The translations under genes and the position numbers were made by a program. From Chloroflexota bacterium (GTDB lineage: Bacteria > Chloroflexota > Anaerolineae > J036 > Brachytrichaceae): DNA of 33,620 nucleotides. Position 1 is the stretch's first letter. Each line of letters starts with the position of its first letter. Shown one piece after another: positions 29,877-33,620 of the stretch. The notes under the pieces were generated by a model. It saw nothing but the letters and a program-made list of their open reading frames with translations, was not told the DNA's origin and did no database searches. The DNA lies in assembly GCA_018969115.1 (NCBI GenBank), contig JAGWYZ010000014.1, forward strand, positions 1 to 33,620, given 5' to 3'.

Positions 29877-31083
29877 CGGCTAAGTTCTCAGTCCATTAGT
29901 CTTGACATAATAAAGAAGGTTGGATAAGAGCAGCAATTGCAGAATGACAGGCTTGGGTCAAAAAAGCAAGCACATTGCGATTTTGTAATTGCAGTGTGCT
30001 TTTGATCGTTAAAATGACTGAAACATAGCTGCTACTGGTGGTGCTTTGCGTTCTAAAACTCCTACGTCGCGATAACACAACTGTTTTTTTATCGTTGCTA
30101 AACTGTTATACGCACTCCACCGATCTGAGCCAACAATGCCTACATAATAATCTGCCCCAGCAGCTTCTGCCATCTGGTTTGGCCTCGGGTTTTAATCCTT
30201 ATGAACACGGCTAACAATTTTGTCGTCGCCCTTCGCATCCAAAATCGCTGGCGTATCTCACGCCAACCTGTTTCGTCGATATGGACGCTGCAACTATTTT
30301 TAATTTCAGCCTCAGTTTTTTTACGATGTCTTCAAGTGCAGCGCTCACCTGATTTTCTAATCGACTCACACTGCCTAACCCTATCTCTAGACCAAATAAG
30401 CCGCCAAGTGCCTGTTGCGTTTCGGGTTAGCTTAGCCCAAACTTACCGCTTAAATACCCAACTGTCGCCTCGATACTCACTCCAAATTCACCTTTAGGCA
30501 TACCCAGTCGCCTTTCTGTTTGCGTCAGCTTGCCACAACATACGCATTTCAAAGTATATCGTTGAAACTCAGTAATATGTGGTTTGACAACAGGGATGTC
30601 GCTCACCTGATGACGTTGGGGTGATTCATCTTGACCTAGCAGCACACTTCCGCATTCGATACAACTCACAGGCCGGCTGATCACGATTTTGTTTACTTCG
30701 TTACTTGGCTTGAGTGCCTGTTAGTAATCTTTATTCCTAGGCTATTCCTAGGCTCCCCACCTTGTGATTTGCCAGCCACTTCCTTTTTTAATTGACCGAT
30801 TTATTGTCCACGGTTGGTCACTTGAGGGCGGTTTTGTGAGTTTTGCTTGTTTTGTTCTTCTCGTTTCTCTAATCGTGTCGGCCGTGATTCAAGCAATGCT
30901 TTTACTATTGTGGGGGTTTTATCCCAACCTTCAACGTTAATTCCGGTTGGCACCTGTTGCTCACTCGTTTTATCTACTCTCTATCAAATTTTTTTTATGT
31001 CAAGTGCCAATCTTAGCTTCTTTTACTCATGTTTCGCTGTTGTTGCGGTTCTTATTGCAAAAATGGTATAGCTGAACGCTTAC
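29877..31083 (-). mobile_element. decayed IS66-family insertion sequence
   Basis: This is a degraded IS66-type element read on the minus strand. The right end, read from 31083, is GTAAGCGTTCAGCTATACC, an IS66-like terminus beginning GTAAGCG. A degenerate match, GCTAAGTTCTCAG, at 29879-29891 marks the probable left end directly behind the transposase C-terminus. The total of about 1.2 kb is shorter than an intact element because part of the transposase gene is missing. No clear 8-bp target duplication is visible, in line with age. Confidence 0.7.
29896..31012 (-). pseudogene. IS66-family transposase remnant, multiple frameshifts and stops
   Basis: Pieces in several minus-strand frames line up with an IS66 transposase. 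In order from 31012 down: GINVEGWDKTPTIVKALLES and LEKREEQNKQNSQN (N-terminal coiled coil); CIECGSVL with CVCCGKLT (zinc finger, about 30540-30665); IPVVKPHITEFQRY; GKFGLS then a stop. Next come ALGGLFGLEIGLGSVSRLEN, then after another shift VHIDETGWRE (first DDE aspartate, about 30260-30290) and IVGSDRWSAYNSL (second aspartate). After an internal deletion the C-terminus reads NRNVLAFLTQACHSAIA down to LIQPSLL (to 29896). The third catalytic acid is missing. The gene cannot produce active transposase. Confidence 0.8.
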
Positions 31084-31122: not shown

Positions 31123-31704
31123 ATGCCTTGGATCAAAATGATACCTCCACAACATGCAACAGATGAATTACGGCGTGTTTATAACGAAATTTATGATTTA
31201 TACCCCGGTGAATATAAAAAAAGTGTGCCAGCATTAATGAACCCTGATGGGAGCGAAGATAGTATTACAGCTGCGCATAGTTTAATTCCTGAGGCGATGC
31301 GACATATTATGTCGGCTTATGGTGTATTGTTGCAACCTGATTTACCGCTTACTCGTAGACAACATGAATTGATTGCATCGGTTGTGTCATTACAAAACCA
31401 TTGTTTTTACTGAACAGAAAGCCATACCGAGTTCTTACGTCGTGTTTCGCTCGATGAAGAATTCGTTGTCGCGTTGCGGCAAAACCCAGAGCAAGTTGAT
31501 TTAAATGAGCAAGATCGTGCCATCGTGGCTTTTGTTATCCGTTTAACCAAACAACCATCAAGCATGATAGAGGATGATGTTAAAGGACTACGTGCAGTTG
31601 GTTTTACAGATCAAGCAATTTTGCAAATTACTATGATCGCTGCATGGTTTAACTATATTAACCGTGTTGCAGATGCACTAGGATTAGGAAAATCGAGCAA
31701 CTAA
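31123..31704 (+). CDS. AhpD-like peroxidase-related protein, predicted selenoprotein (TGA 31411-31413 = Sec)
   Basis: One 193-residue carboxymuconolactone decarboxylase/AhpD-family protein, read through an in-frame TGA at codon 97. AhpD-type proteins use a C-x2-C-x3-H redox centre. Here it reads HCFY-TGA-TESH: Cys 94, TGA 97, His 101, so TGA replaces exactly the resolving/peroxidatic Cys. Before it come PWIKMIPPQHATDELRRVY and TRRQHELIASVVSLQNHC; after it EFLRRVSLDEEFVVALRQNP, DRAIVAFVIRLTKQP and FNYINRVADALGLG. These are normal for peroxidase-related AhpD proteins. Both halves are in the same frame with no other lesion, and the family length fits. A SECIS-like hairpin follows at 31428-31465. 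A recent TGC/TGT to TGA nonsense mutation is the alternative. The role would be thiol-dependent peroxide reduction in the cytoplasm. Confidence 0.8.
31428..31465 (+). promoter_or_regulatory. predicted bacterial SECIS hairpin
   Basis: It starts 14 nt after the TGA. The lower stem is 31428-31436 with 31457-31465 (9 bp, one G-U). After one bulged A (31437), the upper stem is 31438-31442 with 31452-31456 (5 bp, one G-U). The apical loop TGTTTCGCT (31443-31451) has a G at its second position. The distance from TGA to the apical loop is 29 nt. These features agree with the bacterial SECIS rules as known to me: loop of 3-14 nt, G within its first two bases, loop 16-37 nt from UGA. Confidence 0.7.
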
Positions 31705-31725: not shown

Positions 31726-32973
31726 GTGACAACAAAATCCCCACAGTTAGTACGGGTTGTGCTAAGTTTGGCAGGCGTGGCGCTTGCATTGCATCTTATT
31801 GAGCAAATCTGGAACTTTAGCTTGCGCCTAGGTAGTTTGGTGTCGATTTTGGCGGGTGCTTGGTATTTATCGGTATTAGCACGACCATTAATCGGCCTAT
31901 TAGGTCAGTTGCGTGTTCCTCGACGTTTGTTAAATATTTTGCAGCCAAAAATTGGGTCTCATGCTGTCGCCCGCATAGGTGATATGCGTTTGCCGTTTGG
32001 CATCCCCGTCGCAATTTCATATTTGGCATTGTTAATTGTTATTATTGGCATTGTCGGTATTGGCGCAACATCGATCATTCCGCAAGTGGTTGATTTGGTA
32101 AATCGTGCCCCTGATATTTATGCCACATTGCCTATGCGTTTAGTTGAGGTGAGCGGGAACATTGCAGCAAGTTTAAATTTGGATGTCGTTGCAATTGATC
32201 AGTTAATACGCTCGCAAAATATTAGTGGGCAAATTAGTCAAGTCGCTACAATTTTGGGCCAGCAATTGTTGTTGTTTTTAACGGGTGTTGGCTCTTTTTT
32301 AACCCAACTGTTGTTGTCTATTATTCTGAGTATTTATATTACGATGGAAGGACGGCAATTGCACGACGATTTTTTTAAAGTGTTGCCAAAGGCTGCCCAT
32401 GAAACAGCAACTGCGGCCATTACCCAAATTACCCGTGCATTTGAAGGATATTTGCGAGGTGCTTTGTTAGCCGCAGCCATTGAAGGCACAATGTGTTTTA
32501 TGGCCTTAACGGTTTTTAGGGTGAACTATGCATTGCCAACAGCAGCACTTTATTTTGTGGTGAATTTGGTGCCGTTGGTCGGCTCACCCTTGGGCATGAT
32601 TACGGTGTTTTTAGTAACCTTGTTTGCTAACCCTGCTGCCTTGCTTTGGGTGATGGTGACACTCGTTTGCAGCAATTTAATCAATGCTTATGTCATTACC
32701 CCGCGGGTGATGAGTGGGGCGGTAGGGGTTCCCAGTATTTTGGCGCTGCTTTCGACAACTGTTGGTGTGCAGTTATTTGGTTTTTGGGGGCTGATCTTTG
32801 GCACGCCGGTAACGGGCGCGGCTTATGCTTTTGTGATGAATTTCTTAGTGCCACGAGCGCGGGGGGAATTAGTACATGAATCTGCTGAAGTTAGCCCAGT
32901 CATCTCACCCGTTAGCGAGCCTCGACCAACATCAATACCCCATAGCCAGATTGCCCATTCATCGAAAAGTTGA
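31726..32973 (+). CDS. AI-2E (PerM/YdiK) family transporter
   Basis: A 415-residue integral membrane protein of the AI-2E family, a group that includes autoinducer exporters and Na+/H+ or organic-anion antiporters. Two N-terminal helices (about 8-45), a third around 90-115, a hydrophilic amphipathic domain, then a C-terminal cluster of helices. That cluster includes FEGYLRGALLAAAIEGTMCFMALTVFRVNYAL and the family's VNLVPLVGSPLGMI segment. The final GFWGLIFGTPVTGAAYAFVMNF is typical. GTG start at 31726 with a good AAGGAG site 9 nt upstream. It begins 21 nt after the AhpD-like gene, so co-transcription is likely. Its 3' end overlaps the convergent YtkA-like gene by 62 nt. The transported substrate is not deducible. 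Confidence 0.88.
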   Translation: MTTKSPQLVRVVLSLAGVALALHLIEQIWNFSLRLGSLVSILAGAWYLSVLARPLIGLLGQLRVPRRLLNILQPKIGSHAVARIGDMRLPFGIPVAISYLALLIVIIGIVGIGATSIIPQVVDLVNRAPDIYATLPMRLVEVSGNIAASLNLDVVAIDQLIRSQNISGQISQVATILGQQLLLFLTGVGSFLTQLLLSIILSIYITMEGRQLHDDFFKVLPKAAHETATAAITQITRAFEGYLRGALLAAAIEGTMCFMALTVFRVNYALPTAALYFVVNLVPLVGSPLGMITVFLVTLFANPAALLWVMVTLVCSNLINAYVITPRVMSGAVGVPSILALLSTTVGVQLFGFWGLIFGTPVTGAAYAFVMNFLVPRARGELVHESAEVSPVISPVSEPRPTSIPHSQIAHSSKS

Positions 32974-33416: not shown

Positions 33417-33620
33417 TTACACCTTATGTGACATTTGGAAAACCTCGGCGATTTCACGCAAGGCTTTTTCGCGTTCTTGTGTATCATCGCCACGAATGGC
33501 AGACGTAACGCAAGTATTTAAATGGTTTTCTAAAATGATCTCGCTGACTTTGTTTAGGGCAGATTGAATTGCGCTAATTTGGCGGATGATGTCAATGCAA
33601 TAGGCATCTTCGTCAACCAT
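33417..33620 (-). CDS. CsoR/RcnR family metal-sensing repressor, 5' end outside window
   Basis: The last 67 residues of a small helical metal-responsive repressor. The visible part starts MVDEDAYCIDIIRQISAIQSALNKV and continues EIILENHLNTCVTSAI. The Cys in AYC and the H-x3-C in NHLNTC form the CsoR-type ligand set (Cys-His-Cys), which indicates Cu(I) sensing rather than Ni/Co sensing by RcnR. The first visible Met is internal: the family has about 25-30 more N-terminal residues, beyond the window edge. In this family metal binding releases DNA and derepresses the operon. The next gene, YtkA-like, follows after one base, so it is probably part of the regulated operon. Confidence 0.85.
   Translation of the reverse strand: MVDEDAYCIDIIRQISAIQSALNKVSEIILENHLNTCVTSAIRGDDTQEREKALREIAEVFQMSHKV

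Follow-up and report, generated by a model that had tools for sequence, protein, structure and literature searches.

Is the frame at 31123–31704, which is interrupted by a single TGA, two short genes, a gene in decay, or one intact gene in which the TGA stands for selenocysteine? The frame lies on the plus strand of the window (the whole stretch of 33,620 nucleotides that was analysed, from a bacterium of the class Anaerolineae, Chloroflexota). It opens with an ATG at 31123 and closes with a TAA at 31702–31704, and its sole in-frame stop is the TGA at 31411–31413, with 96 codons on either side. The TGA occupies the second Cys position of a C-x2-C-x3-H motif (HCFY-TGA-TESH), exactly as an earlier note on this DNA had described it. 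That note read the locus as an AhpD-like CxxU selenoprotein and expected a normal pipeline to report two truncated ORFs, which is borne out by the table 11 ORF list: only a 96-residue ORF and a later, TTG-started ORF of 76 residues are found at the locus, so that a plain gene caller would split the gene. The selenoprotein reading is strongly supported by the selenocysteine machinery of the genome, a TGA shared among relatives, purifying selection and a SECIS hairpin, and we regard it as nearly certain. The features of the gene are as follows.

31123..31704, plus strand: complete AhpD-like selenoprotein gene, 193 residues including the predicted Sec97
31411..31413, plus strand: in-frame TGA, the predicted Sec97 codon
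31402..31404, plus strand: Cys94 codon, the CxxU partner of Sec97
31366..31368, plus strand: Glu82 codon, proton relay, equivalent to AhpD Glu118 and PA0269 Glu36
31423..31425, plus strand: His101 codon, proton relay, equivalent to AhpD His137 and PA0269 His55

The read-through protein matches the NCBIfam model TIGR01926 ('peroxidase-related enzyme') with 119 bits over a cut-off of 81.8, and the Pfam CMD family with 42.2 bits; TIGR01926 is also matched by all 27 of the 27 aligned members (E up to 0.001). Membership in NF041238 (AhpD_rel_CFYUT, alkylhydroperoxidase-related (seleno)protein) was rejected. The window protein shares the CFYUT motif and matches that model significantly over the catalytic half, but it scores 71 bits against an equivalog cut-off of 175, and the match falls at positions 174–333 of a model of 357 positions whereas the window protein has 193 residues. 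A structure predicted from 27 aligned relatives (pLDDT 90.2) finds its best PDB fold matches in the AhpD-like proteins 6k40, 2oyo, 3c1l and 2prr, and phmmer ranks 6k40 (E 2.1e-21), 3c1l and 2oyo at the top. The predicted structure and the alignment together place both the AhpD fold and the E-C-Y-C/U-H proton relay in the window protein. Residues Glu82, Cys94, Tyr96, Sec97 and His101 are spaced as in the relays of PA0269 of Pseudomonas aeruginosa (2o4d/2ijc; Glu36, Cys48, Tyr50, Cys51, His55) and AhpD of Mycobacterium tuberculosis (1gu9/1knc; Glu118, Cys130, His132, Cys133, His137) (PMC3141380), and the E-x11-C-x-Y-C-x3-H pattern follows PA0269 down to the Tyr in the middle. Both of these proteins have Cys where the window protein has the predicted Sec, and the M. 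tuberculosis AhpD is a weak fold match (E 0.07 or worse). DR1765 of Deinococcus radiodurans (6k40) is the best match in both sequence and fold, with CxxC in place of the CxxU of the window protein. Across the aligned relatives Glu82 and His101 are invariant and Cys94 is nearly so (31 of 32).

In bacterial selenoproteins the decoding of the UGA has to compete with termination under selenium shortage, and on that ground the locus might be read as two genes or as a regulated truncation, with a functional N-terminal product of 96 residues and selenium-dependent read-through. The layout of the active site speaks against this: the N-terminal piece reaches barely into the catalytic helix and includes neither Sec nor His101, the ORF of the second half starts with the TTG at 31474 and is without His101, and conservation is equal on both sides of the TGA. 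We consider such an arrangement very improbable, although it fares best among the alternatives to a single selenoprotein gene.

Among 396 genomes of the class, a relative (E up to 1e-10) is present in 96, and most of the matches have exactly one TGA; for the fetched loci we checked by alignment where the TGA lies, and for the remaining matches the single TGA is a table entry. When the window protein was aligned with its AhpD-like homologues, as the earlier note had proposed, the Sec97 column was found to be TGA-encoded in 31 of the 33 loci and Cys in two (L022 and L054). The close orthologues have TGA in the same codon in seven of seven genomes, the window's own included, and the six others are 64–86% identical to the window gene at the protein level. 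The Cys form L022 has TGC at the Sec97 codon and can be aligned over the whole length of the window gene with 43% identity; Cys is also found at this position in L054 and in the PDB relatives with CxxC. A conserved-peptide scan of named genome contigs returned two relatives only, this Cys form and L021, which is apparently the same contig as L024.

Selection on the protein was compared before and after the TGA. For the pair formed with G238, the nearest relative at 86% identity, dN/dS is 0.06 on the 5' side of the TGA and 0.036 on the 3' side; in the other pairs synonymous sites are saturated, or the ratio is 0.06 to 0.25 on either side. The low values after the TGA indicate that the codons 3' of it are translated and selected as protein. 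A TGA that recurs in the same codon in all seven close orthologues and in 31 of the 33 aligned relatives, with equally low dN/dS to both sides of it, is beyond what chance would place there.

These results also decide against a decaying Cys gene that acquired a nonsense mutation by chance at its second active-site Cys, a reading to which we give even less weight than to truncation. TGC or TGT does become TGA in a single step, and the same genome does contain a truly decayed paralogue (L053; G000:C337:2443-2859, minus strand), which has TGA in the Sec column (CEYU) and in addition a further TGA, a TAG and a TAA. True decay as seen in L053 thus comes with three further stops, and it is by contrast with this paralogue that the clean frame of the window gene is read as functional. 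The TGA shared by seven genomes and the strong purifying selection 3' of it refute the pseudogene reading, and the SECIS hairpin described below is conserved as well. A second paralogue in the same genome (L054; G000:C300:3010-3432, plus strand) is an intact Cys form with CLYC, so that a Sec form and a Cys form coexist in this genome. The earlier note had held that TGC or TGT in place of the TGA would overturn its reading, and the window does come from a fragmented assembly of 472 contigs; a sequencing or assembly error at this codon is nevertheless refuted by the same TGA in the six other genomes, at the protein identities given above, and its probability is negligible.

The source genome (4.61 Mb, 94% complete) was searched for selA, selB, selC and selD, as the earlier note had suggested, and all four are present: selA with 498.7 bits, selB with 335.9 bits when joined and above the cut-off, tRNA-Sec with 72.4 bits and the anticodon TCA, and selD with 379 bits. 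Codes in which TGA is reassigned are known in other bacteria (tables 4 and 25), but TGA acts as an ordinary stop here (it terminates 7 of the 22 listed ORFs of the window, and several of the orthologues themselves), which refutes the reading of this TGA as another residue such as Trp. Cys as the homologous residue and the tRNA-Sec with anticodon TCA also speak against that reading, whose probability is vanishingly small. The selD gene (L019:1420-2529, plus strand) itself contains one in-frame TGA in the context SCAG-TGA-AGK, and for this reason SelD is probably a second, Sec-containing selenoprotein of this genome. Across the class, tRNA-Sec (E up to 1e-8) was found in 74 of the 84 genomes with a TGA form, and the remaining 10 are all less than 90% complete.

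Bacterial selenocysteine codons are expected to be followed by a SECIS element, and a hairpin of this kind, on which the earlier note is silent, begins 14 nt 3' of the TGA.

31428..31465, plus strand: SECIS hairpin with a 9-bp lower stem, a 5-bp upper stem, one bulged A and the 9-nt apical loop UGUUUCGCU

The loop has an invariant G in position 2 and lies 29 nt from the TGA. The hairpin folds with −17 kcal/mol (z −4.55); for a stretch of 66 nt counted from the TGA, z is −2.86. No signal came from folds ending 40 or 56 nt after the TGA, which leave out the lower stem; with a fold window this short the element was nearly rejected, as only the full hairpin is significant. In the seven orthologues 90.8% of the cells are paired, as compared with 57% or less when the partners are shifted by 1–3 columns, and in three of the pairs both partners have changed, G-C becoming for instance C-G or A-U. 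In a synonymous recoding control over the 54 nt after the TGA, the close group has a mean z of −2.46, with all seven members below −1, while at most other offsets in the gene z is near zero, the largest value being −1.17 at 40 codons upstream. The wider family shows weak excess structure after the TGA in the same control (mean z −0.91).

The hairpin was also compared with the bSECIS model, which calls for a G in the first two loop positions, a distance of 16–37 nt after the TGA and an MFE of at most −7.5 kcal/mol (PMC13188914). The window element agrees with this model in its 9-nt loop with G in position 2, its spacing of 29 nt, its 5-bp upper stem and its energy of −13.8 kcal/mol, although the MFE structure forms a 2-bp ministem in the apical loop and the loop rule holds only with this ministem open. 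One close orthologue, L026, falls short of the strict energy cut (−7.0 versus −7.5). The bSECIS rules hold for 23 of the 30 fetched TGA loci (L023–L052) and for neither of the two Cys forms. Shuffled sequences also pass the loose rules quite often, and for this reason the covariation and the synonymous-codon tests weigh more. Rfam at gathering threshold gave no match in the window or in L021.

In the wider family, SECIS-like hairpins (L030, L031–L038, L042, L044 and L051) place the loop either about 17–20 or about 24–32 nt from the TGA, and TGA forms occur in 84 of the 95 genomes sampled from the class whose match could be sorted as TGA or open. The Sec form may be the prevailing state of the AhpD-like family in this class, and the family may have at least two SECIS layouts, a proposal that we make tentatively and think somewhat doubtful. 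If true, it would make the AhpD-like family a case for the study of SECIS shifts within one selenoprotein family.

Downstream, the selenoprotein stop is separated by 21 nt from the next gene.

31726..32973, plus strand: AI-2E family transporter (Pfam AI-2E_transport, 146 bits)

The two genes are probably cotranscribed. This gene order is kept in the nearest relative only (L021/L024), and no such transporter turned up next to the remaining five close orthologues; being common to the nearest relative only, the neighbour gives no clue to function. No obvious Shine-Dalgarno sequence lies immediately upstream of the ATG at 31123, and scans for consensus promoters and terminators gave no more matches than chance. 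On the minus strand at 30427–30684, a zinc-finger fragment resembling those of IS66 transposases scores 25.6 bits, slightly below the Pfam gathering score of 27.3. It lies between dnaN and the selenoprotein gene and is probably what remains of an insertion element. At 33417–33620, also on the minus strand and open at the window end, is a metal-sensitive transcriptional repressor of the CsoR type (Trns_repr_metal, 65.9 bits).

The locus is best explained, with very little room for doubt, as a single, intact gene for an AhpD-like selenoprotein that belongs to the TIGR01926/COG2128 'peroxidase-related enzyme' family and has Sec at residue 97. Computation shows that the gene is intact, that purifying selection extends past the TGA, that the genome encodes the Sec machinery and that a SECIS-like hairpin is present; the incorporation of Sec is what we infer from this. 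SelB carrying Sec-tRNA-Sec(UCA) would bind the hairpin downstream of the UGA, and selenocysteine would be inserted to give a C-F-Y-U redox motif. The product would be an all-helical peroxidase or thiol reductase of the AhpD fold in which Sec97 replaces the second active-site Cys, with Cys94 as its partner and Glu82, Tyr96 and His101 as the proton relay. It may reduce H2O2 or organic hydroperoxides, or hand electrons to a peroxiredoxin. By analogy, peroxide defence with Sec97 as the second active-site position is the most likely role, since PA0269, which has the same relay spacing, is a weak, thiol-dependent peroxidase (PMC3141380), and a DR1765 mutant is sensitive to H2O2, CxxC being needed for function (as reviewed in PMC8945050).

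A 2005 study of the Sargasso Sea described 27 sequences of AhpD-like CxxU selenoproteins in COG2128 (PMC1088965), 'AhpD-like 1' was abundant in the 2008 ocean survey (GOS) with 299 sequences (PMC2398784), and a 2026 review lists AhpD-like selenoproteins under TIGR01926 with the motif CxxU (PMC13188914). The window protein resembles these in its score over the TIGR01926 cut-off, Sec in the second Cys position, a bacterial SECIS downstream of the TGA and the existence of Cys homologues. It differs in that its Chloroflexota branch has an N-terminal half of its own (NPDGSEDSI...AAHSLIP) and a SECIS loop at 29 nt from the TGA. The window gene is thus well supported as a further member, in Chloroflexota, of an already catalogued selenoprotein family. 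Ideas on selenocysteine coding are unchanged by this, and the value of the finding is in annotation: a family that was first recognised in marine metagenomes gains well-supported members from Chloroflexota, together with evidence for their SECIS elements. Standard gene callers easily split such genes, and as a result this probable peroxide-defence enzyme, widespread as it is in Anaerolineae, may be counted wrongly or only as fragments.
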